Assembly: GCA_030159075.1 (NCBI GenBank)
Contig: BROG01000953.1
Span: forward strand, 1-64,000
Origin: Atrina japonica
Taxonomy: Eukaryota > Mollusca > Bivalvia > Pterioida > Pinnidae
Reading direction: 5' to 3'
Length of the DNA: 64,000 nt
In this document: positions 1 to 56,261 of the stretch, in pieces
Layout: each line of letters begins with the position of its first letter
Position numbering within the stretch: position 1 is the first letter of the stretch
The notes under the pieces: model-generated
Database searches by the model: none
What the model was told of the DNA's origin: nothing
The model's input: the letters and a program-made list of their open reading frames with translations, nothing else
Made by a program: the position numbers and the translations under genes

Positions 1-130
1 TCCCAACTCTGGATTTCCAGAGGTGCATGTTTGTCCAACTTTCACTTGATTTGTATATGTATCCTGGATATCCCGAATACTTGTAATACTTCGGTATCTG
101 AGATTTTATGTAGAAATGTTTGACGATATA
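1..130 (+). mobile_element. Dispersed repeat REP-A, partial copy
   Basis: The sequence around GGATTTCCAGAGGTGCATG, then TTTGTCCA, GATTTGTATATG, and CTGGATATCC followed by GGTATCTGAGATTTT, matches blocks in the same order at 29.70-29.83 kb, 53.8-53.93 kb and, inverted, at 12.0-12.15 kb. Only the 3' part is in the window, so the repeat probably continues to the left. The 29.6-kb copy sits directly after a Penelope-like reverse transcriptase, so REP-A may be that element's 3' end (inference). Confidence 0.6.
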
Positions 131-11299: not shown

Positions 11300-11525
11300 T
11301 GTTGTTGTATTGTTGTTTAACGTCCCAAGAAAAATATTTCACTCATATAGAGACGTCACCTAATGCCGATGAAGGGCTTCAAATTGTGATCTATGCTCGG
11401 CACTTACGGTAATTGGGCAGTGAGTGTTATTTAACGTGCCGACACCTACTGTCCAATCTAAAGGACAGGAAAAGCCAGCCGCCACCGCCGATGCCCGAAC
11501 CCGTGACCCTCCGGTTGCTGACAGA
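11300..11525 (-). mobile_element. Old truncated SINE of the Deu/Meta-like family
   Basis: The minus strand shares order and sequence with the full SINE at 45.71-46.00 kb: GTTGTTTAACGTCCCA, AATATTTCACTCATAT, GGAGACGTCACC (here AGAGACGTCACC), GAAGGGCTTCAAAT, GCTCGGCACTTACGG and TTTAACGTGCCG. The tRNA-like head is strongly diverged. It lies in an intron of the membrane-protein gene. Confidence 0.75.
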
Positions 11526-25715: not shown

Positions 25716-26735
25716 TCATCAATACAAATACAATTAACCAAAAGCTATGCAAGTAAACATTTTCTGCTTACGTTTTTTATAGTTTATAAAAGAAACTTAC
25801 AAAGATCGTTGACAGTATAGTTACTTTTTCATCAAATGCATAGTAATAGGGAGCGTTCCAATTAACACGGATTACCGTTTTGATCCTGCATTTAGTTGCG
25901 CCTTTTAGATTTTGCTCCTCATGTATACTTTAAGTTTTCATATTTACCTTCGCAACGTATGCAACGTACTTGGAATATCCTTTTATTTTAGCACATTACA
26001 TTATTTTGCGTAAAAAACAGATCCAGGGGGCTTTTAAAACATACCACAGAGGGTAATTTAGTTGAACGCCAAAGGTAGTAGACGAGGATAAAAGTGCTGA
26101 TAGACCGGGAATCGAACCCAAGACCTATTGAACACTAGCACGACAATTTTACCAAGTGCGCTGTTGGGGCTATCTGTATATAATTGAAACCGGAAATAAA
26201 GTTGAGAAGCATTTTTTGACAATGCACGTAACTTGTGCGACTAAATGCAGGTTTATAACGGTAATCCGAGCTATCTTGAAACTTCTTTATTTGGGAGTTT
26301 CTTTTCCAATGCATTGCAATAAATGATATATTTATAGTTAATAAAATCAATTTAAGACAGAAAATGCTAAGTAAAATTAAATGGAATTTTAAACAGGCAT
26401 ATTTAAGCTTAACCATAATGCTTTCAACAATTAAAACGACCTTTTAAGACCTTATAGGAATAACATATCCTGGTACGTATAACATTAAACATAGATTATG
26501 CGACATGGGTATATATAATGATCATGTGGTTATTGTTCCCAACCGAAAACTTTTTGATGAAATATTTCCGAAACAGTTTAATGATTTACTTGGATACAGT
26601 AGTATACGCTCGTATTATATGCAATATATGTATTTTGAAAATTCTTCTGTATCAAAGATGAAGCACAAACCCAAAGTGATATTAAAAATTGATAGCTTTG
26701 CATATGCATCCCCCCAAAAAAATGAAATTCCTCAC

Positions 26736-28270
26736 CCGTATTTTGCGAAGTTTGTCCAGTAGGTTTTCATGTCATCTGCCAAGTGATATTCTTCAGGTGG
26801 CAACGTGATTTGCAAACCAGAAAATGTGATATCAAAAAGATCATTTAGCTCTGAACCGTGTCCTGATCCGGTGAACCATGGTGGAATTGTTTTTTCAAAA
26901 GGAAAGATAAATTGTCTAGAAAATATATATTGATACGTTTTTGCCTTTGTATTGTTCACTGAATGAAAGTGAAGGTTATATGCAGTGGGGGCGATGAAAA
27001 ATAAATCTCCGTACATGTTGATAACTTGCCTAGCTTGCTCTGTAATATTATTGTGAACGCAATATTTGTCACATATAGCCCTCTGGATCCTTTGATCACC
27101 GGAAAATAAATTTTTGACGAGAAAAGGCAGAATAGAATTATCAAATACTCTTATCGGAACTCCGTCACTGATATTAAAATGTAATCGGTGCTGTAAAGTT
27201 TCTATCTGACCCAAAGCGTCAGATCCCTCCGAATTACAATTTCCAATTATCATATCAAGGGATTTGAAAAAGTTAAGGGCATCGGATGGGGGGCCTGATA
27301 TAATATTTTCAGGTAACTCCATGAACAAATCCGAGTCCACAACTGGAGAAAAACTTATTTCAAATGAGTTTGATACATTTTCACTGCTTATGTAAGTCGA
27401 GTATGCTTCGATTAAAGTCGATATATCTTTTCCTCGCATACAGTCAATAAAATGGCTTTTGTTTTTTGTATCTAAAGTACACGAAACCATGGTTCCAACG
27501 TTGAAAGTATTCTGTGCTCCAGATTTTTTTATTGTTCCAGGACAAGTGGCTACACCACTTTGTGCGATGACTCGATGAAACAAATCTTTATTTGCTGGAA
27601 TAACGGAAAGTACACTTACACTCATTCCTCCGGAGGATTCACCAAATATTGTAATTGAATTAGGATTTCCACCGAAAGCTTGTATGTTAGATTTGACCCA
27701 TTTTAATGCTAACATCTGGTCCCAAAGTCCGTAATTACCACCGGCCTCACTACTACCCACTGTAAAAAATCCTAAAATACCTAATCTGTAATTGATGGTA
27801 ACGACGATAACATCTCCATGGAGTGCAAGTGATGATCCATCGTAGTTTTTTCCAGATCCATATTGATAACCTCCACCATGGATCCATACCATTACAGACT
27901 TATTGTTGACTGTCGATATGTTGTTTGGAACATATATATTTAGAAAGAGACAGTCTTCCGACATTGCCTCAACCTGAGCCTGTCCAGGAAATGAGGGTTG
28001 TACACAAATATTTTTGGCAAGAGTTGCATCCAGTGTTCCTTTCCAAGCTCCATGTGGAATAGGTTTTGCAAAACGTAGATTTCCTACAGGCGGTTTTGCA
28101 TAAGGGATGCCCATAAAAGTATGCACCATTTGTCTTCCATTCCGCACAGAATATTTAACCCCTTTTATGTTGCCCAGTGGTGTTGAAATGGTGATATCCT
28201 TTGATTTTGTTGTATCAAGAATGGAAACAAAAATTATCGCCCAATATTGAATCCGTTTTAAAGATTTCAT
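26736..28270 (-). CDS. Carboxylesterase/cholinesterase-like gene 1, exon 1
   Basis: Type-B carboxylesterase of the alpha/beta-hydrolase fold. With exon 2 it makes about 583 residues, normal for the family. The start chosen is the ATG at 28,270, because an acceptor (TTATCTTTTCAG) at 28,287 shows the further upstream frame is a 5' intron. The N-terminus is hydrophobic (WAIIFVSILDTT) and looks like a secretion signal. Visible family motifs are GIPYAKPPVGNLRF, EDCLFLNIYVP, the oxyanion HGGG (131-134), the nucleophile elbow GESSGG with Ser212, the acid Glu348 in NSEG and His471 in GSGHGSEL, so the triad is complete. It ends at donor ACGG/GTGAGG. The likely role is hydrolysis of carboxylic esters in the secretory pathway or outside the cell; the substrate is unknown. 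No neuroligin-like transmembrane segment is seen. Confidence 0.93.
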
Positions 28271-28619
28271 AATTTTTGTAGGATTTCTGAAAAGATAAAA
28301 CAATCATTTGCTATGGAATGGTTCAGATGAATACTGTCGTATTTTATATAACTGTTGACCTACTTCGATGTGCTTGTTAAGTTTGACATGTTTTGACAAT
28401 GTATCGAAACAATTTGCAGTGTCTAAATTGATTGTCTGAAATACAGGACATATTAACATAAATCGTATCCCAGTTATGCCAATGGATTGGATGTGATGGA
28501 CAACTATCTGTCTTTTTTTGTCCTATTTTCCGGGTGGTTTTAATTATATTGGTGTTCTGAAATTAATACTTAAAATATATAGTTAAATAAACGTCATTTA
28601 ATACGAATTGTACAGTTGC

Positions 28620-29585
28620 TTATTCCAGAAGCGGTGTAAATCAGATGTGGATACTTAAAAATTCTAAACAGCTTTTAGAAAATTTTAAGGCACATAATTT
28701 TTCTCGAATTCACAGTATCAAAACTTATGATTTCTCAACTCTTTACACTACTATTCCACATAAAAAATTAAATGAAAGGCTTTTTAGCATCATAGACAAC
28801 TGCTTTTTCACTAAAGGTGGTACCCGAAAATTTAAATATCTAGTGATTGGCTATCAGGATACTTATTTCGTCAAACACCACTCTGATTCTACACATAAGT
28901 ATACTGAAGTTGGTATAAAAAAACATGCTGGAATTTCTAATAGACAATATATTTGTGATGTTCGGAGACGTGGTCTTTCAACAAACTGTCGGCATTCCTA
29001 TGGGAACCAATTGTGCTCCTTTATTGGCCGACCTGTTCCTTTATTCATACGAAGCAGACTTCATTCAGAAACTGCTGAATCAAAAGAAGAAAAAGTTAGC
29101 GGTGTCCTTTAATTTGACATTTAGATATATCGACGACGTTTTGTCAATTAATAATGACAATTTTCATACATATGTCAATGCGATATATCCCAGCGAACTA
29201 GAAATTAAAGATACAACAGAATCAAGTACACACGCTTCATACTTAGACATTGTACTTAATATCAACACAGACCGGAAATTAGCAACCAAGCTATACGATA
29301 AACGCGACGATTTCGGCTTTCCCATCGTAAATTTTCCACATTTTAAGTAGTAATATCCCTCACTCACCTGCATATGGAGTTTATATTTCACAAATGATCC
29401 GATATGCCAGGGCGTGCACAACATATGAAGATTTCATATACAGAGGTAAACTACTCACTGACAAATTATTGACACAGGGATATCGAAAACCGCGTTTAAT
29501 GTCAACGTTCCGCAAATTTTATGGTCGGTATAATAGTCTTGTTTGCGACTACTCTGTTTCACTAAGTGAAATGTTGAGTTGCCTT
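28620..29585 (+). pseudogene. Penelope-like element reverse transcriptase fragment
   Basis: It runs RSGVNQMWILKNSKQLLENF, FSTLYTTIPHKKL, QQTVGIPMGTNCAPLLADLF, FRYIDDVLS (the YxDD catalytic box), YPSELEIKDTTES, ASYLDI, TKLYDKRDDFGFPIVNFPHF and STFRKFYGRYNSLV. This order is typical of Penelope-like RTs common in bivalves. The frame breaks near 28,920 (an A7 run), at a TAG at 29,348-29,350 and just after it. The N-terminal part and the GIY-YIG endonuclease are missing. It retrotransposes DNA when intact; this copy is dead. Confidence 0.85.
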
Positions 29586-37330: not shown

Positions 37331-37336
37331 GTCCCC
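37331..37336. repeat. Left target-site duplication of the Polinton (GTCCCC)
   Basis: The six bases directly outside the left AGTAGTTATAGG terminus are the same six found directly outside the right terminus (49,715-49,720), in direct orientation. A 6-bp duplication is the hallmark of Maverick/Polinton integration. Confidence 0.88.
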
Positions 37337-37680
37337 AGTAGTTATAGGCAGCTCCCTGGCACGATTTTGAATTTTGACCGCTAGGTGGCGCCATTAGTGG
37401 CGCTGTTGATGACGTCATCAGAATACAGGCTTTTGATTGGTCAATTTCGAAATCGTGCCAGGGAGCGACCTGTGACGCCATAACCGGAAGTGCGTCATAC
37501 TAGAAGTGAGGTCATACCAAAAGTAAGTCATACCGCAAGTGAGGTAATGTTGTCATGGCAATAAGGAAAAATCCCCAATGGGTTTTTTCCAGTTCTGGGC
37601 TGAGAGTGAATCTGTTTTTAGAACAGATTTTGAGTGAAATCAGTAGTAGGTATCGCCACAGTCGGCGAGAGTTAACGATC
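37337..37680. repeat. Left TIR of the Polinton
   Basis: About 340 bp align with the reverse complement of 49,215-49,714: AGTAGTTATAGGCAGCTCCC, AGTGGCGCTGTTGATGA, TGACG-CATAACCGGAA, AGTGAGGTCATACC, TGTCATGGCAATAA, GAGTGAATCT-TTTTTAGAAC and TCGCCACAGTCGGCGAGAGT. The outer part also folds on itself: 37,351-37,371 pairs with 37,446-37,466 (21 bp, one mismatch). Repeated CATACC-AAGTGAGG words lie at 37,495-37,550. Confidence 0.85.
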
Positions 37681-38069
37681 TTGCATCAAGTGCGCAAGCG
37701 CGAGAAGCGGAAGACCGGGCTCGCGTCAAGATTGAACATGTTATCTTTGTACTAAGACTCATAGAGTATGTACAAAGTAAAATTGAAGAAGTACCATTCA
37801 ATAATCAAAAGTCACGAAGAATTAGATGTGCAAATGGTCTCAACATAAACAGTTACGAATCGGGATAAGACCAGGTGTCCGGAAGGAGTCAGTGTCATCT
37901 GCTGGCATGCCACACACGTTGCAAATATTCCATGGAAACCTTTCTAGTTCGATGAACGGGTCAAATTCGCTAAAAAGGTCAAGTTTGTTGATGAAGTCAA
38001 GTTCAGTGAAAAGAATGATTGGTGAAACGGAGTCACTGTCTACGGCCGAGATCCAGAATACTATATAAT

Positions 38070-38945
38070 ATTTCTGAGATGGGGACTTAATAATGTTTAT
38101 CAAGATCATCGTATCGACCATAAAACTTCTTAAACGACGACTCCAAGCGTTCAACATCGTAATCTTGTGTAAGTTGTTTATTCACTAGTCGTTTAGATCT
38201 CAGAATAAAACATTCATAAGAAGAGCATGCCCTGGCATAACGTATACGTTGTGAAATGAAAACGCCAGGAGAAGATGGAATATTACTACTAAGAAACGGG
38301 TTTGTGATATGGAAATTGCAATCATCTCGTTTGTCACAAAGGGATGTGTGATGTTGGCCGTCATGGGTAAATCTAGGTACGAAGCAGATGTGTTGCTCTC
38401 TGTCGTCTCATTGATCTCTCGGTCAACAGGATACATCTGGCCGAGGTTATTCTGAAATTCTAGACAGAACATCGTCGATATACATGTAAGTAAAATTGAA
38501 CCGAGATGCTAATTTTTTTGTTTGTTTTGGAAAGCAGACACTGTGTTAATTCCGTTTCATATGTTTACAAACATATGTCAGCCAAGAGAGGTGCACAATT
38601 GGTACCCATTGGAATGCCGGCAATCTGTTGGAAAACTTTACGCAAAAACCACGAAGATATTGTCTCCTAGAAACCCCAGCATCTTCATAATATCGTCTTC
38701 AGTGTACTTGTTATTGGAATCAGGGTGTTCCTTCACTAAATAAGATTCTTCTTGAACTGACACCAAATATTTATATCGGCGATTTGCATTTGTATACAGA
38801 AGGGTTTTTGATGAGGTATTGTTGTGTAAAGGGTCGAAAGATCAAAAGACTTGATGCTTGTAATATGTTTGAAATTGGAAATTTTAAGTTCCAACAATTC
38901 CTTTGAATTCTTTAGGATCCACAACTGATTGACTCCGCTTCTTGA
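38070..38945 (-). pseudogene. Penelope-like reverse transcriptase fragment inside the Polinton left arm
   Basis: The minus strand reads RSGVNQLWILKNSKELLE, ITSIKSFDLSTLYTTIPHQK, then badly decayed palm sequence, REINETTESNTSASYLDL and LESSFKKFYGRYDDLDKHY. It is the same family as 28.6-29.6 kb and even more broken. The YxDD box is lost. It indicates that a Penelope-like element landed in the Polinton after integration. Confidence 0.8.
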
Positions 38946-38984
38946 GTAAGCCGTTATACAGTACTTCTGAAGACCTTGTGTTAG

Positions 38985-39320
38985 AAGTTAAAGGGTGATC
39001 ACTCTGTAAAGACTGTATGGACGGGACAAAAGGGAGATCATTCCGTATAAACTGTGTAGGTGGGACAAATGGGTCACTATGTATAGACTGTTTAGATGGA
39101 ACAAATAGGGAAATCACTCTGTATAGCCTGTATGAGTAGGGCAAAAGAGATATTACTCTATATAGATTGTATGGCTCGTACAAAGGGGAGATCACTGTGC
39201 ATAGACTTTATAGTGAAACATAGCTCTGTATAGACTGTAGGGTTGGTACAAAGGGAGGTTACTCTGTATAGACTATAGGGATGGAAAAAACGGGAGATTA
39301 CTCTATATGGACTCTATACA
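38985..39320. repeat. Diverged minisatellite, unit about 35 bp
   Basis: ATCACTCTGTATAGACTGTA, then GGGACAAA and GGGAG, repeats about eight times with substitutions and small indels. The ORF over it has no other support. Confidence 0.75.
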
Positions 39321-39536
39321 CTAAACCAGATAGAGAGAGAGGGCGGGTAGTGAAACCGGAAGTATAGTATAGCAAGGGTAGCCATCTTGGCTATGGAATC
39401 ATGGGATATCTAGTTTTCAGAGACTGACTTATCACACAACAGGAGAGATACATTGAACATGAAAGTGTGTAACGTACTCAAAGTTTGCAAAGTTTTCAAG
39501 TGCGTACCATTCTCAAAGTTTGCAAAAGTGATCAAG

Positions 39537-39540
<4 letters not shown>

Positions 39541-39602
<62 letters not shown>

Positions 39603-39604
39603 AA

Positions 39605-39641
<37 letters not shown>
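39541..39641. repeat. Homopolymer C60-A6-C35
   Basis: Sixty C, six A, then 35 C. The opposite strand is G-rich enough for quadruplexes. Exact lengths are unlikely to be reliable in any assembly. The poly-Pro and poly-Gly ORFs here are artefacts. Repeated (C)AAAGT-type words flank it at 39,470-39,530. Confidence 0.95.
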
Positions 39642-39643
<2 letters not shown>

Positions 39644-39654
39644 CGTTCTCATAT

Positions 39655-39770
39655 TTCAAAGTTTTCAACGTGTGCAAGTTATGAAGTCTCAAAGTGATAA
39701 AGTTGCAAAAGGACAAAGAGACAAAAGTGACAAAGTGACAAAAGTGACAAAGTGACAAAGTTATGAAGTA
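39655..39770. repeat. AAAGTGAC-type simple repeat
   Basis: Imperfect repeats of (A)CAAAGTGAC and GACAAAG directly right of the poly(C) tract, continuing the AAAGT-rich text on its left. No coding evidence. Confidence 0.7.
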
Positions 39771-39935
39771 TGACTAGTTTGAATTTCTATCTAATGAAAT
39801 TTATCGATTAAGTAAAAGAGCTAGGGAATGTTCACATTCACTTACTATCGGTTAGACTTACCACTGCAGTATAACATAACACATACAAAAAAACTGCATA
39901 CTTGCAGGTAAGGTTTCTTTTTGAGTAAGTTGGGT

Positions 39936-39951
39936 GGCCCTTAAAAAGGCC
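39936..39951 (-). terminator. Histone-type 3' stem-loop, left edge
   Basis: On the minus strand AAC precedes GGCCTTTTTAAGGGCC, followed by ACCCAACTT and a purine-rich TCAAAAAGAAACC. It has a 6-bp stem (one U-G pair) and a 4-nt TTTA loop, with the flanking AAC and ACC seen in metazoan histone mRNA ends. It lies 6 nt after the candidate minus-strand gene 39,957-40,172. SLBP and U7-type processing is inferred from the consensus, not shown. Confidence 0.72.
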
Positions 39952-39956
39952 GTTGG

Positions 39957-40172
39957 TTAATGAGTTAAAATCCTGTGCCTTATAGGCACCTGCAACACAC
40001 CGTCTTTTTCTTCTTTTTTGCTGTTGTATGGGCCGCAGCAGCTCTGCACCAGTGAAGTAGTCCGGTGTTTTGTTGCTCGAAATATTCCCAGTCCTGGGAC
40101 GCCGTCTGAAATATCTCTACGCTGTATTTGGGTTTATGAGCTCAAAAAGAATGTTCTATCAAGCACTGTCAT
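39957..40172 (-). pseudogene. Small minus-strand Polinton gene with one premature stop
   Basis: A TATA box lies about 40 nt upstream and a histone-type stem-loop directly follows. The frame starts MTVLDRTFFLSS, meets TAA at codon 13, then stays open for 58 codons (TQIQRRDISDGVPGLGIF and on, with SCCGPYNSKKEEKDG). Another frame over the same stretch (KPKYSVEIFQTASQDWEYFE, then KKKKK) is open for about 50 codons without an ATG, so the frame choice is uncertain. The family was not recognised. Confidence 0.45.
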
Positions 40173-40212
40173 ACTGCTTTGGTTTGTGGTAGTGAAAATA
40201 GAAGCGCACGGC

Positions 40213-40220
40213 TTTTTATA
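40213..40220 (-). promoter_or_regulatory. TATA box of the left minus-strand small gene
   Basis: TATAAAAA on the minus strand followed by GCCGTGCGC, about 40 nt before the ATG at 40,172. The shared upstream region 40,221-40,341 would serve as a divergent promoter for this gene and the plus-strand gene at 40,342. Confidence 0.6.
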
Positions 40221-40341
40221 TGAGCAGTATAGCGCACACGACGTACTCCGTCTCGTCATCTTTGACCCCTTTGATGACTAGTCAATGCGTCTAGAGTGAT
40301 AGAGGCCTAGGAGAAATTAGTCTAAGATAAAAAAATCAAAC

Positions 40342-40569
40342 ATGGCGTATGTTATGGAGTACACTATTGATCAAGAAAACGAAGCTGTGTCGAACGAACA
40401 TGTGCCAGTATATGATACCAATCAGATTATTCGTGCTCAAGAGAAGTTACGAAAGATTAATATGAACTTTCATCAGGGAAAAGATGTTCAACTGAGACGA
40501 ATTGTACTTCTCAATTCTGTTTTGTGGTTTGGAAGAGAAGAAAGAAATTTTAAGCAGATGGACGAGTAG
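40342..40569 (+). CDS. Small Polinton protein, 75 residues, unrecognised
   Basis: Intact ORF starting MAYVMEYTIDQENEAVSNEH, acidic first half, then basic and amphipathic (NQIIRAQEKLRKI), ending REERNFKQMDE. The start context CAAACATGG is good. The stop lies about 50 nt before a histone-type stem-loop, the spacing of histone mRNAs. It forms a divergent pair with the gene at 39,957-40,172. It is not a histone: there is no histone-fold sequence match by eye. The function is unknown. Confidence 0.6.
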   Translation: MAYVMEYTIDQENEAVSNEHVPVYDTNQIIRAQEKLRKINMNFHQGKDVQLRRIVLLNSVLWFGREERNFKQMDE

Positions 40570-40621
40570 TGTTTGCCGTTTAACAAGAGATTTTGTTCAT
40601 GACAGATATTAAAAAAACAAC

Positions 40622-40637
40622 GGTCCTTTTCAGGACA
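40622..40637 (+). terminator. Histone-type 3' stem-loop after the 75-residue gene
   Basis: AAC, then GGTCCTTTTCAGGACA, then CC. The stem TCCT/AGGA with a G-C pair and the loop TTTC is the canonical histone loop. The downstream purine-rich element is ACGAAAATAAACC. The outer G/A pair is mismatched. Confidence 0.78.
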
Positions 40638-40774
40638 CCTTATATCTTACGAAAATAAACCTTAAAGTGAATGTGTAGTGTATACTATGAACTGAGTTAT
40701 AGGGTTAATGGGATGGAGTGTTTTACAGAGTACTTAGTATATGTAGCATATCTCAATGCAGTTTAGATTACTTT

Positions 40775-40800
40775 TCTAATGAGTTTGGTGGCCGTTGGAT
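40775..40800 (-). terminator. Deleted remnant of a histone-type 3' end
   Basis: The minus strand reads ATCCAACGGCC directly joined to ACCAAACTCATTAGAAAAG. These are the 5' half and the ACC flank plus downstream element of the other sites, with the loop and 3' arm missing. It lies about 40 nt after the stop of the minus-strand gene 40,838-41,146, exactly where the intact sites lie relative to their genes. Confidence 0.55.
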
Positions 40801-40837
40801 AGGATACTAATATTGGCAGTAACATCGCCGTTCTGCT

Positions 40838-41146
40838 TTACACTAGATCATATTTCTTCCTCTTGATAGACATGATGATCGATATCTGTAGTTGACGAAA
40901 ACTAGCTCTAACCTGTTTTCTAGTACAAACATACTGAGCTGCCAGATTGTCTAAGCACTGTCGGTACTGACGGTCGAGTTGATCTCTGACTTTCTGTGAG
41001 GTTTGCTGTTGTTTCAGTTGCCTCCATCTCTGATGGAGTCTCGTCGGTAGACTCTGATATTAACGATCATACTGTATCGCATTCAACTTGGTCTTCTGTT
41101 GTAACAGAATAATTTTCTGAATAGCTTCTGTATAGATACTCTCCAT
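40838..41146 (-). pseudogene. Small basic coiled-coil Polinton gene with one in-frame TAA
   Basis: From ATG at 41,146 the frame encodes MESIYTEAIQKIILLQQKTK and on, meets TAA at codon 29, and continues open for 73 more codons (YQSLPTRLHQRWRQLKQQQT, then RQYRQCLDNLAAQYV, ending SIKRKKYDLV). Rich in Gln, Arg and Lys with heptad-like hydrophobics, so a helical DNA- or protein-binding role is possible. A single nonsense change separates it from an intact gene. A pure T run at 41,146-41,165 replaces the expected promoter. Confidence 0.6.
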
Positions 41147-41275
41147 TTTTTTTTTTTTTTTTTTTGTTGTTTGGTTTCTAAACGATGTTCGACAAGTAGG
41201 AGAAAAAACGCTCATGCGATGTGTGACGGCACACCCTACTGAGTATGTCTAAGAGTCTATAGTCATTGCTTGATC

Positions 41276-41460
41276 ATGGCTGAATGCGTAAACATGTGGG
41301 GTGAAGAAAAATAAAAAAGAAGAATGGATGGTGTTTGCCGATAGAGTGGGAAGAAAGGTGGGCTGGCTAACGAATATCGGTAAATGAATAGAGCTCGCAA
41401 AGTTTGAAAAAAAAAAGAGAAAGACGGTCCAAAATGCTTTTTATGTCATGGCATATTAAG
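41276..41460 (+). pseudogene. Decayed small plus-strand Polinton gene
   Basis: ATG at 41,276 opens MAECVNMWGEEK, then three stops (TAA, TAG, TAA) interrupt a Lys/Gly/Arg-rich frame (SGKKGGLANEYR, MNRARKV). It is followed by a histone-type stem-loop and forms the plus half of a second divergent pair with 40,838-41,146. The call relies mostly on context. Confidence 0.35.
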
Positions 41461-41469
41461 CCTAAACGA

Positions 41470-41485
41470 GACCCTTTTCAGGGCC
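41470..41485 (+). terminator. Histone-type 3' stem-loop, second divergent unit
   Basis: GACCCTTTTCAGGGCC followed by ACCTAACTT and ACGAAAAGAAAC. The stem CCCT/AGGG with loop TTTC and the outer G-C is close to the metazoan histone consensus, with one A-C mismatch. Confidence 0.78.
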
Positions 41486-41899
41486 ACCTAACTTTTACGA
41501 AAAGAAACATATGACTGTTTAGAGTAACAGCAGTTCTATAGTCTCAACAATAAAACATAGATCCTTTGTATATCCTTATTTTTTCTCTCGGTATCTCTTA
41601 TACTCTAAGTCACTAAGTGTTACACTATCACTCTTTGTATCCTGCTAGTCATATTTATAGTTTGTCAATGGAGTTTTACACCAGATCACTCTGTACATTT
41701 GTGTCTACCGTGTAGATACTATGTTTAAACTCTAAGTGTACACTAAACTCTAAGTGTACACCATATACCCAGACATAATACACAAACACCAGATCAATTT
41801 ATAATAAGTTTAATACCCCTCTAAACATAATTTTAGATAGTCGGTAAAGGAATAGGGTCGTTCCTCTGTGACTATGTAGAATACACGAGAATGAACTTT

Positions 41900-42000
41900 A
41901 AAAACACTTATTAACTTGAAAACACTTATTAACTTGAAAACACTGATAACTTTGAAAACACTGATCACTTTTGAAACACTGATCACTTTTGAAACGTTTT
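41900..42000. repeat. Short tandem repeat, unit about 18 bp
   Basis: AACACTTATTAACTTGAA, then AACACTGATAACTTTGAA and AACACTGATCACTTTTGA, repeated about five times. Confidence 0.85.
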
Positions 42001-42179
42001 GAAACAGTCTTCAAACACGCAAACAAACTTTTGTCACTTTGTCTCACTACTACGGTTGATATTGCCCAAACAGCACGGGGCAAAAGAACGTCTGCTTTTG
42101 TCCTAGATCGGTCGATTGGGATTACTGAACGCTATGACACTAAACTTATTTACATTATAACAGTACAAAAATCACATCA

Positions 42180-43083
42180 TCACTTCTGTTCGGTTTCCAC
42201 TTTCACTTTCTTGGTTGGTTTTCCTCCCTTCTTGAGCATCTAGTTGAGTTTACGCTTGGCTCCTGTTGAATTCTGTTCATAAGCATTCATAAGCCCAATG
42301 ACCTGACTGATGACATTTATAAAATTGGTATGATTGACGAGATCGATTTTCTACTTTGTTCTCAGGTTCTACTTTGTTCTCAGGTTCTATCCTTACTGTT
42401 GTCGTCGTTGTTGTTGTTGTTGTGTTGTTGTCGACCCGTTATTCTTAGGACATCTAGGAGACATATGTCCAATTTCACCAGAAATGAAACAAGGGTGAGT
42501 CTGTGGGGAAGGTTTATATTCTTAACTCATATACGACTTCTGACTGTAGCTTATCCTTCAATTCTTTCGGACTAGCTATAATGGTCGTAAGTTCACCAGT
42601 TGACTGAAAGCACAATATTTAGACCAACGTCGATGTTCTGTATAAGCATTATCGGACCATTCCGATTCATTTAAACAGGTGCCACAGCAAAAACACTGAA
42701 CGTGGTCACTGTTCCCTACATACATAAATCCTGCTCTGGCTAATTTTGTCTGTTTAGGTCCCGGTAAATATTTTTGGCCAATGATCTTTAAACATCGGGT
42801 ACCTGAATTAACACGTACAAAAATATGGCAAGGCTAAAGGTATACTTAATTTCTGATGAAACGATAACCCTCTGACGGTTGCAGGTCTTTGTTTAAAAGT
42901 GGGCACACCCTGTCTCCTTACCACTTCAATCAGATTTGCTCTCGGTACATTATCCATTTCTACCCGATGGGTTCGTGGTGCACTATCCATTATGTCTCGG
43001 CTCATGGGAGCACTATCTGTGACGGTCTGACTAGCATCCATTGTCGATGAAAATAAAGAATCCATACTTGATGTTCTTTCCAA
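42180..43083 (-). pseudogene. Polinton gene with BIR (IAP) domain and CCHC-like zinc knuckle, broken
   Basis: The N-terminus begins at ATG 43,083 with a repeated MDSAPR/MDNVPR-like motif. After a frame change near 42,800, about 42,750-42,603 encodes a BIR domain: LARAGFMYVGNSDHVQCFCC, then a Trp, EHRRW and a final Cys (C-x2-C…H…C zinc set). After a further stop at 42,576, the region 42,450-42,491 encodes CFISGEIGHMSPRC, a CCHC knuckle with the second Cys changed to Ser, then a Gln run and a tail rich in Lys. BIR domains bind caspases or IAP partners. Several large DNA viruses carry them, so an anti-apoptotic role in the element's life cycle is plausible but inferred. The gene has at least two frame breaks and several stops. 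Confidence 0.72.
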
Positions 43084-43168
43084 TATTTCTGAGAGTGAAA
43101 TGCCCCTGATGGGGATTCACACCCCCTTTTTATAAGGTCCATAAAGTCTATTTTAGATCAGATCAAAA

Positions 43169-43408
43169 TCATTCATATTTTTTACGTTTTTTGTTCTGAA
43201 AAACAAATTGTATCATCGGTACATCTACACAATAACCAAAAGGACCCCATGCAAGTTGTTGTTGTTCTTTATGCACATGATACATCATACCTGCCCGGTT
43301 ACCATTATTATCATTTAATTGTAAATGAAAAGTGTCCCCGTACATGGGAGACTTACGACAATCGCTTAACCATTTTCGTATATAAACATATAAACATAAA
43401 AATAGCAT
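43169..43408 (-). CDS. Unassigned Polinton ORF, 79 residues
   Basis: It reads MLFLCLYVYIRKWLSDCRKS, then MYGDTFHLQLNDNNGNRAGM, WGPFGYCVDVPMIQFVFQNK and a KKRKKYE end. The alternating hydrophobic pattern suggests beta structure. It may be the C-terminal part of a larger gene, because the upstream minus-strand frames (43,410-43,540) also look coding, with the AT-hook-like word KGRPRK. The family was not recognised. Confidence 0.35.
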   Translation of the reverse strand: MLFLCLYVYIRKWLSDCRKSPMYGDTFHLQLNDNNGNRAGMMYHVHKEQQQLAWGPFGYCVDVPMIQFVFQNKKRKKYE

Positions 43409-43536
43409 GAGGTATTTCTATGTGTTCTACTTTTCGTGGTCGTCCCTTCTGTCTTTTCACTCCTTCCATCTGTCCTTCTTCTCTTTGTTCTTTTATCTCT
43501 CTATTGATACCTTTCGTAGACGTCACCCCTTTCTTT

Positions 43537-43791
43537 TCACTCTCTGTCCCTGTTGTTCTTCTCCTTCATCTCTCTGTCCTTCTGTCTTTTCCTGTCCTTC
43601 TGTCTTTTCCTGACTCTGTCCTTCTGTCTTTTCCACCGTTTCCCTATTCTTTCTTTCTGTTCTTCTTCTTCTCTCTGTTTCTCTTCTCTCTGTTTCTCCC
43701 CTTTCAATCCCTTTGGTCTTTTCATCTCTTCTTTTCTAACGTCTTTTCTCATTTCATTTTCTCTTTTCGGAGGTTGAAACGATGTTGACAC
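43537..43791 (-). CDS. Highly charged Polinton ORF, 84 residues
   Basis: From MSTSFQPPKRENEMRKDVRK it continues as Lys/Arg/Glu/Gln repeats (KQREEKQREEEEQKE, then repeated RKRQKDR). It begins about 155 nt after the polymerase stop on the same strand, so it could be the next gene. The pyrimidine bias of the plus strand here could also create such an ORF by composition alone. A helical, nucleic-acid-binding protein is possible. Confidence 0.4.
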   Translation of the reverse strand: MSTSFQPPKRENEMRKDVRKEEMKRPKGLKGEKQREEKQREEEEQKERIGKRWKRQKDRVRKRQKDRKRQKDREMKEKNNRDRE

Positions 43792-43948
43792 AATGACCCT
43801 CGATCATAGTTTTATTACTAAAAAAACCTTTTTTTTCAAACCACTCTCATTCTTAATTTTTCAGTCTCACCTTTTCAATAAACATAAGAAAAAGTACAAA
43901 AGTTTGCAATGCGATGTCTCTTATCATACACTACACGCACTTGTTTAG

Positions 43949-46900
43949 TCATCGTCTGTGTTTTGACGTTATGCTGTTTCGTTGCATGATCTTACGAGGG
44001 TTCGGTACAAGCACTTTCTTTTGTTGACCACGTAACAACTGTTTCAATGTATCTACGTTGACCGTAGAAGTGGTACGACTATCAAAAGTGATTCCTTTGA
44101 CTTTACATACTGTTTTGTCCTGACGAGTCTTGTACGCATAATTTTTAGGACTTCCAGAGACAAAGGATAATGTAGAATCACCATCACAATCTAACCCGTC
44201 TGTCCATCCCACTAAACTGTTAACTATAGTGCGATTCCACTGGGTGGATCGTGTTGATAAATGATACCCTCTGTATCAAAATATAACACACGATCTCCCA
44301 AACGTTCTAAGGTGGCAGAGAGATGTAACTGTGCTAAAGATGTAGTAAAGGCTGCTAGCACTACACTGCTAAAACCATTTGGTTCATCAAAGTCATCCTT
44401 CGGTTTCGAATTCACCAGCAACATGTCTAGCATATCATGACCTTCATCATTTGGAATCAGCTCTAATTGTAATATATCTCGAGTGTCATCTTGAAGCAAC
44501 TGTTGTTTCGTAATTCTCCACATACTGTGTCTGAGGTAAATTAGTCCGTTGAGCAAATTCATTCCACAAACAGTTCAGAAACAGTTTAGCAATGGTACGT
44601 AAGATAGGATTCTTCTCGACATCTTCTTCTCGTATGATCAGTTGTTCTCTCGTTTCAATTTCTGTGAGGTACTGGCGACTGTTTTCCACTGTTGACAGGA
44701 AGCAGAAAAACTACTAACTTGTTGTTTAATATGGAGAAACTGATCAATATAGCTACGAAATAAAGTATTGGACTGATAAGGGAAATGACATACTTCACAT
44801 AGCCTTTCTCTATAGCTTTTTTTCAATTCACACTCGTCCATGTACCTAACAAACTTCTCTTTTGATTCGTATGACAACATCGATAATTAAATTCCAACTC
44901 CTTTTCGATTCCTTGTTGAGCACAAGTACGGCATAAAGGAAAAAGTATTTTCCCTCCTGCAAAGCGATGAGGTAACACGGGATGAAACACCTGACGAAGG
45001 GAAATAACTCGACATTGTACCACTCCAAAATATTGATCTAGACTTTTGAAATCGTGAGTAACCACATCTGGGTGTCCAATTGGAAAAGCCCCATGTTTCA
45101 AGATAAACGGGTACAAAGAACATACATCCACGGAACGAATGTCTCCGTCTTCACAACGCAAACTAGTAGCATTCGTTCGACCTCCAAAAAAAGCTTATTT
45201 AGGAACTAACGGGTCGAAGAAATCCGTTTTATCAATGAAATGTTGAAACTGTGAAAATCTGTCTTATACCTTTGACGATAGTCATATTCCACAACATTTC
45301 TACTTGATAGTATTGACGCAAATACTGATCTCTCTTGCTCTCTAAGGTCTTTTGATACACTTCTACATACGTTAAGGAGGTATGAAACGGATGTTTGTCT
45401 TGCTGTACATTCGGAAAACACAAGGGACATCCGTGCCAAAAACATCCATGAAACTCCTAAATGGTCCGAGAGTCTTCATGATAACCATCCACTCGATAAA
45501 ATCCTACTTAGACTCCACCTCCATGACGAGCATGTCTAATCGTTTGACCAGTTTTATGTTCTTTCCAACTCAACCAGCGTAATGCTAGGGTGGAATACTG
45601 TCGTGTCGAAGGATATCCCCGTAGACGTATGATATCAATCGTATCTTTTTGCATATGATTGCGACGATATTCTATATTCCCTATACTGGCAAACGTATTC
45701 GATTCAGTTTGTTTGTTTGTTTGTTTGTTTATTGTTGTTTAACGTCCCACTCAAGAATATTTCACTCATATGGAGACGTCACCAAATGCCGGTGAAGGGC
45801 TTCAAATTTTGGCCTATGCTCGGCACTTACGGCCATTGAGCAGTGAGGGTTCTTTAACGTGCCGCCACCTACTGTGACACGGGACTTCCAGTTTTTACTG
45901 TCTCATCCGAAAGACAGGAAACCAACCTGTCGCCGGCGGGACTCGAACTCACGACCTCACGATCCAGAGTCGAGCGCGCTACCGACTGAGCCAGGTCGGC
46001 TCTATTCGATTCAGCAAATCGGTCAACAGCGGTTAGTTTCAAACACATGCTTTGAAAATGCATACAAGCTTGTCGCAAAATAGTCACGTCCGATTCACAG
46101 TATTCTTCTTATTCCGGTTGCAAATGAAAAATAACACCCTTTCGAATTCGGCCTTGATACCACTCTTCAAAATCTCCAAAAGCTTTGGGTAACGAAACTA
46201 AAGGAAATGACAAGAAATTACACGAGTCTATAAACCTGATCTAGATCCATGATCTGTTTACAATGGCGACATTTTTTTCTTCTTGTCTTGACAACAGTGT
46301 TATGTGAATTGTTTCACACTCATCCATAATTGACAAGTAAGACATCGAGTCATTAGCTGACATGAAGTCCTGGTCGTATTACTACTATATGGTTTCAAAT
46401 AATTCTCGTAACACTGAGTCGATATGAATGTACCCTGACAAATGCGTACACTCTATAGATTTTATAATGTTGTCGGGAACACGGAGCCACGGTGTAAAAC
46501 AACGAAAAGAGCATTGAGGGCATCGCTATCTTCTACATGATTATAACCCACATCACAACGTTCAGAATAGTAATTATATTCCAAGAGTCCAGACATAGAT
46601 ACTATACAACTGCAATGATGGTCATCGTATAAAACATGAATGGGGACCCCGGATCCTATACCACTATACAGTACATTAAATGTCAATCGTTTTGTGTTTG
46701 TATTCAGTTCGTAGATTTTCAAATGGTAGTGTAGTAACAACACGGTCTGAAAACGTTGCCTTTCTTCAGGTCCACTCTCTTGTTGAGTATCACATCCAGT
46801 TTGTTGCATTAAGGCATGAGCTTCTCGTCGTTAAAGTGTATGTCTACTTGCATCTCCTGACTCAAAGTTTTCCAATATCGTTGCCAATTTTTGTACTTGT

Positions 46901-47561
46901 CTTCATCTCCAAGTCTAGGTTTCTGAAAATGAAAACGACCAACTACAAACGCACGAGCTAAACAGGTCTTGACTTTATTCTTGTTCAGAAAGACTTTTTT
47001 TTTTATCAAAACTGAGATATTAACGTTTTCCACCCCAGCTGCCTACAGGTTGCATGACATCGATCACCGACATGGTGGAAGACCTATCATCGATTCTAAA
47101 ATTTTCATTTCTCTGTTGTACGTTCTCAATTTTCCCCATGAGTAGATCATTCAGGTTTTTGCATCCGTAAATTCTACCCACACTTCACTTTTTAAAGATG
47201 GATGATGTATATTGACTCTCATCTTATCCCGACCCTCGCACTGTAGTTTGTTCTTGATAGAAGTCAACATATGATCTAATACCTCTGATACTAAGTGTGT
47301 GGTATCTTTAGAAAAATGTTTTAACTTGACCTGTTACACATTCGAGGCTGTTTTAAACTTACGTGAGTTACATTCACTCAGGGTGTCTACTTCATAATAA
47401 TCACTATAATTGTTGAGTTGTATGTTTGCATTAAATCCATCACACCGTTGGTCTCTCTGGTGAGCATGTCTTTGACTTCTCGCCTGTTCTTTTCTTTCAT
47501 TTAACATTAAATCAAAGTTGGGTAAATTAGTCATTCTCTGTGGGTATGCTTCCGTTGTCAA
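43949..47561 (-). pseudogene. Protein-primed family B DNA polymerase of the Polinton, multiply broken
   Basis: Domains in order on the minus strand: N-terminal region (47,561-47,035); KTCLARAFVV (about 46,960); a Cys/His region with YYSERCDVGYNH (46,530); exonuclease motif EEYCESDVTIL (about 46,090); the endonuclease-like EFHGCFWHGCPLC (about 45,435); FFGGRTNAT and palm motif A DVCSLYPF (about 45,120); motif B KLFLNCLWNEFAQR (about 44,580); motif C YFDTEGIIY (about 44,275); and FVSGSPKNYAY (about 44,150). Length fits Polinton/adintovirus polymerases of about 1,100 residues. In-frame TAA/TAG codons (near 47,335, 46,115, 45,520 and 45,455), several 1-nt shifts and a SINE at 45.7 kb break it. 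The usual DTD of motif C is DTE here. Confidence 0.9.
45708..46002 (-). mobile_element. Full-length tRNA-derived SINE with Deu/Meta-type core, inserted in the polymerase gene
   Basis: It is flanked by the 12-bp duplication TATTCGATTCAG (45,696-45,707 and 46,003-46,014). Minus strand: tRNA-like head with A box TGGCTCAGTCGGTAGCGC and B box GAGTTCGAGTCCCG, a conserved core TCTTTCGGATGAGACAGTAA then TCCCGTGT, the body shared with 11.3 kb and a CAAA-rich tail. The polymerase frame resumes on the other side after one duplication is removed, so it inserted after the element did. Confidence 0.92.
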
Positions 47562-47734
47562 ATCTAAAATGAAGTTACAGTAACTGTATACGTGTATTTA
47601 TAATAAAAATGAAATATCTGTATAGATACTCAAACGAAGTATCATCACGCATATATATTCATAACGCTGTTTTATTCTAGTTTTTTATGTTTACAGGTAC
47701 ATAAAACTAGAAATTAGTGACAGTATTTACCTAA

Positions 47735-47925
47735 AAACAGGTGGCCAGATGTCTAAAACAGGTGGTCAGATGCCAAGTGTCAAGATGTCAAAAACCGGTG
47801 GTCAGATGACAAGTGTCAAGATGTCAACAACAGGTGGTCCGATGACAGATGGCCAGATGTCAAGTGTCAAGTTGTCAAAAACAGGTGGCTAGATGTCACA
47901 AACAGGTGCCCATATGTCTAGACGG
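47735..47925. repeat. CAGGTGG/CAGATG tandem array upstream of a Polinton gene
   Basis: ACAGGTGGTCAGATG, AAGTGTCAAGATGTC and variants repeat about seven times with mixed spacing. Each has E-box-like CAGGTG or CAGATG cores. It lies 50-240 bp upstream of the TATA box at 47,978. Confidence 0.8.
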
Positions 47926-47977
47926 AAAAAATGAAACTCGTCCTAAAATCAATGCGTCACACGCACGTCATAAACTC

Positions 47978-47985
47978 TATATAAG
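47978..47985 (+). promoter_or_regulatory. TATA box of the right-edge Polinton gene
   Basis: TATATAAG, 32 nt before the ATG at 48,017, in a context (ACTC before, CTAGTACTGCC after) that suits transcription starting close to 48,008. Confidence 0.7.
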
Positions 47986-48016
47986 CTAGTACTGCCTGAG
48001 TCGGTATTAGTTCATC

Positions 48017-48322
48017 ATGGATAACTCTTTCGACAATGATATGCAACCTGAAGAGAGAAACATGAGAATCATTCTTACACGGAGAACACGTATTGTAGTA
48101 AGACCACGCACCCCGATAAATTCTGGTATGACCCTTGCGACACCTACTACACAAAACCAGGGACCACCTAGATCTGACCCTTCACTTCCAGTTCCTGTAC
48201 AATACGTACTAGCTCAGAAAGCATTAGCTAATCTCCGACAACATAAGACAGAGATAAATCGACTGATGATAGAGAAAGAAAGGGAAGTTCGTCGTTGGCG
48301 ACGTCTTTTCGACAGCTATTAG
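48017..48322 (+). CDS. Right-edge Polinton protein, 101 residues, unrecognised
   Basis: Intact ORF starting MDNSFDNDMQPEERNMRIIL, then TRRTRIVVRPRTP, a Pro/Ser/Thr-rich middle, then a charged helix (VQYVLAQKALANLRQHKTEI, then EREVRRWRRLFDSY). It has a TATA box upstream and a histone-type stem-loop 36 nt after the stop. The Arg-rich segment could contact DNA. The family is unknown. It is one of only two intact genes with this 3' signal. Confidence 0.65.
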   Translation: MDNSFDNDMQPEERNMRIILTRRTRIVVRPRTPINSGMTLATPTTQNQGPPRSDPSLPVPVQYVLAQKALANLRQHKTEINRLMIEKEREVRRWRRLFDSY

Positions 48323-48358
48323 AATCTCTCTCTAAATTAGCTTTTCGAAGCAATCAAC

Positions 48359-48374
48359 GGCGCTATTAAGGGCC
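48359..48374 (+). terminator. Histone-type 3' stem-loop, right edge
   Basis: TCAAC precedes GGCGCTATTAAGGGCC, then ACCCAACTTAT and TCGAAAAGAAACC. The stem has one G-G mismatch, so it is somewhat decayed, but the AAC and ACC flanks and purine-rich element are kept. About 100 bp from here outward are an inverted copy of the left edge (39,860-39,957). Confidence 0.7.
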
Positions 48375-48594
48375 ACCCAACTTATTCGAAAAGAAACCTT
48401 AACTAGCAGTATGCAGGTTTTATGTATGTTGTGTTATTCTGTAGCGACGAGTTTAAAAAATATTGTAGTGACTAAAACAATACCTATCAGTGTATATTCG
48501 CTAAACATTAATAGTTTTATTTCAATTGTGTTATTGGTATGACTGAAGTATTCACTTCATTAGATTAAAGTCTAATATAGTAAGTCATGTGACT

Positions 48595-48945
48595 AGAGAG
48601 AGGTTCAGTTAAGCTTGTGAAAACTCATTTGAGAACGGAAAAACCACTACTACTAGCATGGATGAGTGTTTCATTTTTTATTAGTTAGGGCTAGATTATC
48701 CCCCATGCATTAAAATGTCAAATATCTCAGAAGAAAAAAAGTCACATACCTTTAAAAACTAGAGTATAGGTTCAGATAGACCTCTGAGAGCTCATTTATG
48801 ACCCGGAGCTCGAAGAGTCAACATCATCAGAAAAACAATACCAGCATAGGGTGAGCGTTTGAATTATTATTACATAGGCTTAGTGTTTACCGTATGAAAC
48901 AGTAATTTTCAATATATTAGAAAAAATTTAGGAACTAGCAACGTT
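48595..48945. repeat. Two diverged tandem copies of about 171 bp in the right arm
   Basis: AGGTTCAG, GAGAGCTCATTT or GAAAACTCATTT, CTAGCATGG-TGAGTGTTT or CCAGCATAGGGTGAGCGTTT and TCAGAAGAAAAA-like words recur at the same spacing. No gene was found in this arm. Confidence 0.55.
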
Positions 48946-49214
48946 AATAAGGTTTTCATTACTTACAACTTAATTATTCTAACAGGGGAATACACATCAA
49001 TGTTCAACGCTATTCAACGTTAATCAACGTTCATTCACTCTAGACCTAAAAACTTTGAAAAAACCCAACTCCTGTTAGCATTACTAATATCGGCAACTGT
49101 GGAGACACTTACTACCGATTTGACTCCAACCTGGGAAAATTCCAAAGTTTCGGTTCTAAAAATAGATTCACCTGCAGTCCAAAACTGGAAAAACCCATCT
49201 CCTGTTAGCAACTC

Positions 49215-49714
49215 TCATCAACTCTCGCCGACTGTGGCGACACCTACTGCTTATTGCACTCAAACATGGGGAAACCCAAAGTTTTGGTTCTAAAAATAGA
49301 TTCACTCTAACCCAAAACTGGAAAAAAACTTTAGCCGTTGAGCTCTCGTGAACTCACGTGACCCATCGTGACCTCGTAGTTTTGTAACAAAGGCTATCAT
49401 TGGCTCGTTATTCAAGATGGCCGCCTACACAACCTTCCAATTCCTTCATAGACACACCTCCAAATTCAACGATTGGCTCTTTCTAATTATTGCCATGACA
49501 ACATCATCTCACTTCCGGTATGATGCTCATCCGGTATGACCTCACTTCCGGTATGACGCCTTTCCGGTTATGACGTCACAGGAGGCTCCATGGCACAATT
49601 TTAAAACTGACCAATCAGAAACCAGCATTCTGATGACTTCATCAACAGCGCCACTGATGGTGCCCCCTATCGGCCAAATTTCAAAATCGTGTCAGGGAGC
49701 TGCCTATAACTACT
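49215..49714. repeat. Right TIR of the Polinton
   Basis: Inverted match to 37,337-37,680 with internal indels; it is longer on this side. It ends GCCTATAACTACT and contains its own foldback (49,584-49,605 against 49,681-49,700). Its inner portion (GGCGAC, CAACTCTC, GATTCAC) recurs imperfectly at 49,085-49,215. Confidence 0.85.
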
Positions 49715-49720
49715 GTCCCC
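49715..49720. repeat. Right target-site duplication (GTCCCC)
   Basis: Identical and in direct orientation to 37,331-37,336. It is not part of the TIR, because the left flank is the same strand sequence rather than its complement. Confidence 0.88.
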
Positions 49721-54200: not shown

Positions 54201-54571
54201 ACAATGCAATTGATAATATATGTGCAGTATATAGAATCATATTGTAATAGAAAAATGATGAACAGCAATTAATGAAATTTTGTAAAAGAGTACAGAATTC
54301 GACATTTTACTTGTGTCCATAGAAACTCGGATTTAGCTATTCTCAGGGAGATTTACAGATTGGAACGTAATCAATACAAATCATGCGACGGCATTTTGAT
54401 GAAATATTTACGAAAATTCTATTACAATTTACGAATTTTGGACACAAAAGTATATGCACATAAAATATGAATACCATAAATATTAATAACAGATACAAAG
54501 TGAATCACAAATTAGCGAATTCGGTAGATTTGCATGTACATTCCAAAGACCCGACATAGACCATTCCTTAC

Positions 54572-56093
54572 CCGTATTTTGCGAAGTTTGTCCAGTATGT
54601 TTTCATGTCGTCTCCCAAGTGGTACTCATCAGGTGGCAATGTCATTTGCAAACCGGGCAATGTAATATCAAAAAGATATTTTAGCTCTTTACCATGTGCT
54701 GCTCCGGTGAACCATGGTGGAATTGTTTCTTTGAACGATGAGATGAGAAGTTGTCTAGAAAATATATATTGATACGTTTTTGCCTTAGTGTTATTTATGG
54801 CATGAAAGTGAAGGTTGTACATAGAGGGAGCGATAAAAATAAAATCGCCGTACATGTTGACAAGTTGCCTAGCTTGTTCTGAAATATTATTATGAACGCA
54901 ATATTTGTCACATATAGCCTTCTGAATGCTTTGATCACCGGAAAAGAAATTTCTAACAAGCGGAGAGAGTATAGTTTCTAGAACACTGTTTGGAATTCCG
55001 TCACTGATATTAAAATGAAATCGGGACTGTTCTTTTTCCACCATTCCTATGATACCAAATCCCTCCGAATTACAATTTCCTATTATCATATCAAGGGATT
55101 TGAAAAAGTTAAGAGCATCGGATGGGGGGCCTGATATAATATTTTTAGGTGAAACCATAAACAACTCTGAATCTACAACTGGGGCAAACATAATTTCAGA
55201 TAAGTATGATGAATTTTCACTGTAAGACGCATATGCATTCAACAAAGACGATGAATTTTTTCCACGCATACAGTCAATAAACTGGCTTTTGTTTTTGGTG
55301 GCTGATGTACATGAGACCATGGATCCAACGTTGAAGGTGTGTTGTGCTCCAAATCTTGTTGTTGTTATGGGAGAAGTAGCTACACCACTTTGTGCGATGA
55401 CTCGATGAAACAAACCTTTATTTGCTGGAATAACGGAAAGTAGACTTACACTAAATCCTCCGGCGGATTGACCAAATATTGTAATTGAATTAGGATTTCC
55501 ACCGAAAGCTTGTATGTTAGATTTGACCCATTTTAAGGCTGGTCCCAAAGTCCGTAATTACCACCAGCCTCACTACTACCCACTGAAAAAAATCCAAAAA
55601 AACCTAATCTGTAATTGACGGTAACGACGATAACATCCCCGTGGAGGGCAAGAGAAGATCCATCGTGCGATTTTCCAGATCCATATTGATAACCTCCACC
55701 ATGGATCCATACCATTACAGACTTATTGTTGACTGCTGATATGTTGTTCGGAACATATATATTTAGAAAGAGACAGTCTTCCGACATTGCCTCAGCCTGA
55801 GTCTTTCCAGGAAAGGGGGCTTGTAAACAAACATCTTTGTCAAGAGTTGCATCCAGTGTTCCTTTCCAAGCTCCATAGGGAATAGGTTTTGCAAAACGTA
55901 GATTTCCTACAGGTGCTTTTGCATAAGGAATGCCCATAAAAGTGTTCACCATTTGTCGTCCGTCCTTTAAAAGACGCTTTTCTCCTTTTATGTTGCCTAG
56001 TGGTGCCATAACGGTGATATACTCTGAATTTGTTATCTCAAGAACAAAAAAGGAAATGATCACCCAATTGTTAATCCGTTTAAAAGATGCCAT
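54572..56093 (-). pseudogene. Carboxylesterase-like copy 2, exon 1 with a 7-bp deletion
   Basis: Paralogue of 26,736-28,270. The start chosen is the ATG at 56,093 after an acceptor (TTTTTTTTCAG) at 56,118, with a hydrophobic leader (WVIISFFVLEI). EDCLFLNIYVP, HGGGYQYGSG, the elbow GQSAGG, NSEG and GAAHGKEL are kept, so all triad residues remain. After GGNYGLWDQ, 7 bp present in gene 1 are missing (about 55,537-55,545) and the frame shifts just before the nucleophile elbow. Unless this is a sequencing error, the product is truncated to about 185 residues. Donor: ACGG/GTAAGG. Confidence 0.85.
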
Positions 56094-56261
56094 TATCAGC
56101 AACGTGTTCCAGGATTTCTGAAAAAAATAAGATAAATAAATAAAATGCTATATCACGTTTTATGGGGAAAACTCTCAGTTGTGTTTTAGTATACTTGTCC
56201 TAAATCATTGTGCCCTTAATTGCTTTAACTCTAAAACGAATTTGGCATATGTAATATTGAC

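Follow-up and report, generated by a model that had tools for sequence, protein, structure and literature searches.

Probable histone-type 3' ends on five small non-histone genes of a Polinton-related mobile element in the bivalve Atrina japonica

Terminal inverted repeats (TIRs), AG/CT ends and a 6-bp target-site duplication (TSD) are defining features of Polinton/Maverick elements. In mimiviruses, a palindrome directs both the termination and the polyadenylation of transcripts. To our knowledge, 3'-end processing by SLBP and the U7 small nuclear ribonucleoprotein (snRNP) is taken to be exclusive to histone mRNAs. Here we analysed 64,000 nucleotides of Atrina japonica (assembly GCA_030159075.1, contig BROG01000953.1, positions 1 to 64,000; hereafter the window), which contain a Polinton-related mobile element of 12,378 bp at 37,337-49,714. 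Comparison of its sequence with known RNA families, with its own copies and with host genes indicates that the element has at least five small genes, here called A to E, that do not encode histones and carry SLBP/U7-type 3' ends, a reading to which we give a probability of about 0.88.

A previous inspection of the same letters without database searches (the sequence-only reading) had proposed histone-type ends on several non-histone genes and had placed four hairpins at 39,951-39,936 on the minus strand and at 40,622, 41,470 and 48,359 on the plus strand. All four sit where they had been placed, and the covariance-model search suggested at that time returned matches to Rfam RF00032 (Histone3) at each of them, with scores of 35.6, 28.3, 23.4 and 21.3 bits (E = 3e-7, 1.6e-4, 0.011 and 0.067, counting all 4227 Rfam families). 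The gathering score of this family is 34, which among the four is reached by the 35.6-bit site only. The features matched are a 6-bp stem, a 4-nt loop and AAC/ACC flanks; a purine-rich word, corresponding to the histone downstream element (HDE), lies about 10-15 nt past the hairpin. A joint pattern of hairpin, ACC and purine word, written after the sites had been seen, caught 3 of the 4 and gave no match in a first-order Markov control of 2.56 Mb. We also built a model, R1, from 31 hand-picked family sites, all from the element and including the four of the window. Applied to the window, R1 detected five strong sites (36.3-69.8 bits), the next best scoring 13.9 bits, and the element holds all five. 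The fifth site, overlooked by the sequence-only reading and not among the R1 input sites, has lost its hairpin and kept its flanks and purine word. The five ends are as follows:

39904..39957, minus strand: gene A histone-type 3' end; hairpin GGCCTTTTTAAGGGCC at 39,951-39,936, ACC, then CAAAAAGAAACC (RF00032 35.6 bits; R1 66.7 bits)
40616..40669, plus strand: gene E histone-type 3' end; GGTCCTTTTCAGGAC ACC, 3' arm one base short (RF00032 21.3 bits; R1 60.2 bits)
40758..40799, minus strand (read 40,799-40,758): gene B histone-type 3' end, degenerate, hairpin deleted (R1 36.3 bits; intact in relatives)
41464..41517, plus strand: gene C histone-type 3' end; GACCCTTTTCAGGGCC ACC ... CGAAAAGAAAC (RF00032 23.4 bits; R1 57.5 bits)
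48353..48406, plus strand: gene D histone-type 3' end (RF00032 28.3 bits; R1 69.8 bits)

The host assembly (832 Mb, 2347 contigs) was then searched with RF00032, where 75 of 155,611 candidates were scored and 72 of these 75 lay above the cut-off. We fetched 28 of the 75 scored places, chosen as model hits; hairpin, ACC and A-rich word occur together in all 28, and 27 belong to the element family by their flanks, the remaining one (L032) aligning over the motif only. The recurrence of the sites in related copies, another check named beforehand, was thus found across the assembly. Among the places listed, one layout recurs (for example on C12, C34, C42, C43 and C5), in which gene D is followed after 8.5-9.2 kb by C, after about 0.7 kb more by B and after about 1.0 kb more by A. 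An Rfam scan of 18 stretches (142 kb) gave 42 matches over the cut-offs, all of them Histone3 and covering classes A-E, and five relatives of the gene E end exceed the gathering score. Pairing was perfect in 10/16 gene B sites and 10/17 gene E sites that had not been used for locating their locus. The exact word GGCCCTTTTNAGGGCCACC occurs 778 times in the assembly and its reversed control not once; judging from the places fetched, these words are mostly repeat copies. The single genome match of GGCTCTTTTNAGAGCCACC is gene D of the element family.

The comparison with the host's own histone genes, also proposed in advance, provided the decisive control, a host H2A gene with what we read as the same 3'-end signal: an identical hairpin and the AGAAAAGT purine word common to its end and the element ends. 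PF00125 matched 12 of 18 candidates, and the 3' side of 7 of the 12 was examined. One of them (L089:50-620) is an intronless H2A gene whose protein ends in SSQSQEY. It carries, 24 nt past the stop, GGCCCTTTTAAGGGCC, ACCC and then TAGAAAAGT and CCTTAAACT (motif string AACGGCCCTTTTAAGGGCCACCC...TAGAAAAGT...CCTTAAACT), and it scores 39.0 bits with Histone3 and 56.0 bits with R1, a model made from element sites only. The hairpin is identical, letter for letter, to many gene A and D sites, and gene B has TAGAAAAGT as its purine word too. The histone end found on the element is thus of the type that its host uses. None of the other six histone-fold stretches (two H2A-like, the rest other histone-fold or split genes) gave a Histone3 hit, and each contains AATAAA or ATTAAA, neither of which is present at L089. 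A chance resemblance could be argued from the three window sites that fall under the Rfam gathering score. Against it stand the empty Markov control, the 72 of 75 genome candidates and the 42 matches in 18 stretches above cut-off, and taken together, the number of copies, the absence of the reversed word and the match at a host H2A gene refute chance in effect.

We next consider the genes behind which these ends lie. Each class carries its hairpin on the sense strand, 3' of its own gene, and in the window, where the middle of the element is shorter than in other copies, the order is A, E, B, C ... D:

39980..40197, minus strand: gene A remains, frame broken, limits approximate, TATA box upstream (flank homology, open reading frame [ORF] fragments)
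40342..40569, plus strand: gene E, 75 aa in the window (ORF)
40838..41059, minus strand: gene B coding remnant (ORF, flank homology)
41276..41460, plus strand: gene C, broken in the window, end approximate (ORF, relatives)
48017..48322, plus strand: gene D, open frame of 101 aa with a TATA box upstream (ORF; 101-aa relatives in L038 and L073)

The five genes are unrelated to one another, no histone domain was found in Pfam scans of proteins A-E, and a homologue search with protein D returned nothing. Where the hairpin lies at the usual gap, the ORFs measure 65-80 (A), 91-121 (B), 58-64 (C), 101 (D) and 83-89 aa (E), and two further gene E ORFs extend upstream beyond this range. The distance from stop to hairpin is short and characteristic of each class: 26-31 nt in 6 of the 8 listed gene A ORFs, 13-26 nt in 5/13 for B, 16-18 nt in 8/13 for C, 23-26 nt in 6/13 for E, and for D 34 nt (L038), 36 nt (window) and 37 nt (L073). 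The gap of 52 nt for gene E of the window, against 23-26 nt in six relatives, arises because this copy stops earlier. The pooled ratio of nonsynonymous to synonymous substitution rates (dN/dS), from 31 of the 50 listed ORFs with many truncated or shifted ones omitted, was 0.20 for A (6/8), 0.46 for B (8/13), 0.41 for C (8/13), 0.51 for E (7/13) and 0.49 for D (2/3, that is, two sequences). Judged by these ratios, genes A-E are under purifying selection. Proteins A, B, C and E mostly have a basic, Cys-rich tail (KKRRCYCQY, KRTKCFLCHGI, CLPFKKRFCT and VCCRACCCCCL). A cAMP-response-element-like motif, GTGTGACGTCACAC, lies upstream of the divergent genes B and C in many copies (window 41,140-41,280), and about 100 bases of nearly pure C (98%) are found near the end of gene A, at 39,541-39,641.

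Aligning 25 of the 31 sites in register across the five classes gave between-class identities of 0.88 for the hairpin, 0.87 for ACC, 0.55 for the spacer and 0.86 for the purine word. Outside these blocks, identity was 0.26 at -40..-7, 0.70 at -6..-1, 0.48 at +39..48 and 0.27 at +71..110. Leaving out the A-D pair changed little: from -40..-7 through -6..-1, hairpin, ACC, spacer, purine word and +39..48 to +71..110, the values became 0.27, 0.69, 0.87, 0.85, 0.55, 0.86, 0.46 and 0.27. The two conserved blocks coincide with the positions that stem-loop and HDE occupy in histone pre-mRNA (PMC2781718). Within the stem, column pair 9-20 has changed from C-G to U-A in 6 of the 31 sites, all of them gene E, and a second compensated pair occurs in one gene D copy, found with a pattern that demands such compensation. 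Against 500 shuffles, the covariation score and the count of doubly changed cells came out ahead of every one. The 97.3% pairing in the 31-site alignment is biased, since the sites were hand-picked and are mostly good hairpins.

These data bear on three other explanations. If a host histone end had been captured once and copied along with the element as a functionless passenger, similarity beyond the HDE would be expected, and it is seen (0.48 at +39..48, where the H2A end shares CCTTAAACT), as is the decay of many copies. However, the two blocks have stayed at about 0.87 between classes while spacer and flanks diverged, the gene E stem is compensated, and the end is kept by five coding genes under purifying selection, which makes this account highly improbable. 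The extension of the L089 similarity past the HDE is nonetheless a hint of capture from a host histone gene; such an origin fits the H2A match, and it is the lack of function that is disfavoured. Alternatively, the hairpins could mark 3' ends by the mimivirus rule, through a palindrome that acts without SLBP or U7. Their position directly after the stops would agree with it, but the fixed sequence, the short stem, the second conserved block at HDE distance and a host H2A gene with identical hairpin and word render it very unlikely. Finally, the motif might be a signal of the element's DNA, serving replication, packaging or recombination and merely resembling a histone end. The ends of genes A and D indeed fall on the inner edge of the inverted repeats, with about 95 bp common to both (39,864-39,958 pairs with 48,444-48,352). 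The B, C and E sites, in contrast, occupy internal positions, every class has its hairpin on the sense strand behind its own gene, and host H2A bears the same signal, so that we consider a DNA-level role extremely unlikely.

Several observations weigh against histone-type ends as the preferred reading. The 31 sites of the covariation alignment were picked by hand; two of the five measures, namely how many pairs have changed and how many pair types occur, were reached by 411 and 408 of 500 shuffles; the gene E compensation is probably one event; and the five 3' ends may stem from a single end by duplication. Among the listed ORFs, those outside the usual gaps are truncated or run through, or else their hairpins have changed, and several hairpins have decayed. 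On the host side, at least one of the 778 GGCCCTTTTNAGGGCCACC words is a host histone gene end rather than a repeat copy, one histone end of histone type was found among the 7 stretches examined, and an H4 query gave no match. A search for host U7 yielded one weak, unlike match only, and a U7 pattern matched 21 times against 31 in the control, none of the 14 matches examined looking like U7. In addition, none of the 15 larger ORFs examined has a hairpin within 400 nt (4 of the 15 have AATAAA or ATTAAA within that distance), so S-phase timing would not extend to the polymerase.

If the ends are nevertheless of histone type, as we favour, the host SLBP would bind the hairpin and the host U7 snRNP would pair with the GAAAAG word, the pre-mRNA would be cut a few bases past ACC, and short mRNAs without poly(A) would result, made and stable mainly in S phase. 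The match between the element's ends and the end of a host histone gene suggests that the element borrows the host's histone-message machinery. The broader proposal, that a virus-like element has put a gene set under the host histone-mRNA 3'-end system, so that its small proteins would be translated from poly(A)-less messages solely during host DNA copying, appears to us somewhat favoured.

The element had been called a Polinton, with coordinates of 39936..48374, beyond which it extends. The name is supported in part: the element has a type B DNA polymerase (PolB), TIRs that end in AG/CT and a TSD of 6 bp, but an integrase, major capsid protein, ATPase and protease were not recognised. GTCCCC on either flank forms a perfect TSD, the outermost letters read AGTAGTTATAGG... 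on the left and ...CCTATAACTACT on the right, and the ends pair as inverted repeats (37,336-37,564 with 49,715-49,487 and 37,583-37,673 with 49,327-49,220). The remaining features of the element are:

37331..37336: target-site duplication, left, GTCCCC (flanking letters)
37337..37579, plus strand: left TIR, outer part, AGTAGTTATAGGCAGCTCCCTGG... (84-85% to the right end, inverted)
42280..42438, minus strand: zinc-knuckle (CCHC) gene remnant (Pfam: below cut-off in the window, above cut-off in copy L054)
42579..42833, minus strand: BIR (inhibitor of apoptosis) domain piece (PF00653, 5e-17)
43952..47597, minus strand: broken gene for a type B DNA polymerase, its limits estimated from ORF pieces (PF03175, 6e-12 on 45,194-44,826)
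49220..49714, plus strand: right TIR, ending ...CTATAACTACT (inverted-repeat comparison)
49715..49720: target-site duplication, right, GTCCCC (flanking letters)

Scans of 30 ORFs or ORF pieces, 20 of them in the window and 10 in copies (a part of all ORFs), detected no RVE integrase and gave no Pfam match to a major capsid protein, FtsK-like ATPase or protease. In copy L073 the 5 kb adjoining the D end are filled by gene D and the polymerase, and in L054 the stretch towards C is filled by a 302-aa-type gene, BIR, CCHC and the small genes; with a D-C spacing of 8.5-9.2 kb, this content leaves little room for an integrase. Given the unrecognised Polinton proteins and the little space left, "Polinton-related" is a safer name than "Polinton". 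The 302-aa protein adjoins the polymerase (L052:130-1035), has 21 relatives and no Pfam match, and was not seen in the window copy; from its resemblance we presume that it may be of capsid type. The polymerase has 66 relatives, including entries named from Araneus, Trachymyrmex and Tenebrio, and neither its pieces nor the PolB alignment found a relative among viral contigs. The stem pattern matched 22 stretches of viral contigs; these were rejected as histone-type ends, as Histone3 was above cut-off in none of the 15 checked and the layout of ACC and purine word was present in none of the 22, judged by eye.

The polymerase gene also contains a short-interspersed-element-like (SINE-like) insert with a tRNA-like part at 45,725-46,000, whose tail resembles 11,302-11,452. 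A retroelement piece lies in the left part of the element, where a fragment at 38,463-38,744 is inverted and 70% alike to 28,862-29,145, which we take to be a reverse-transcriptase piece. Two stretches that bracket the element, 26,727-28,293 and 54,563-56,124, are 84% alike and are presumably carboxylesterase-like gene stretches.

A limited and weak search of the open-access literature turned up no paper on such 3' ends in a Polinton or any other transposon, and the element possibly represents new biology, a known RNA signal in a setting not previously known for it. If the reading holds, the histone-only rule would be broken by a mobile element that has five such genes and whose hairpin copies number in the hundreds; the genes would constitute a non-histone SLBP/U7 regulon, as well as a selfish element's way of timing itself to S phase. 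Poly(A)-selected libraries would then miss the element's messages, the element could load the host SLBP/U7 pool, and S-phase timing by a selfish element would become a directly testable question.

Compared with the described systems, the ends resemble those of replication-dependent histone mRNAs (RF00032) in hairpin, loop, AAC/ACC flanks, HDE distance and short gap after the stop, and differ in that they belong to non-histone genes in a mobile element and are known here from sequence. Mimivirus 3' ends also have a palindrome right after the gene, but those of the element have a fixed sequence and a short stem and are accompanied by an HDE. With Polinton/Maverick elements it shares a PF03175 PolB, AG...CT TIRs and the 6-bp TSD, and it is set apart from them by its BIR and CCHC genes and by five small genes bearing histone-type ends.

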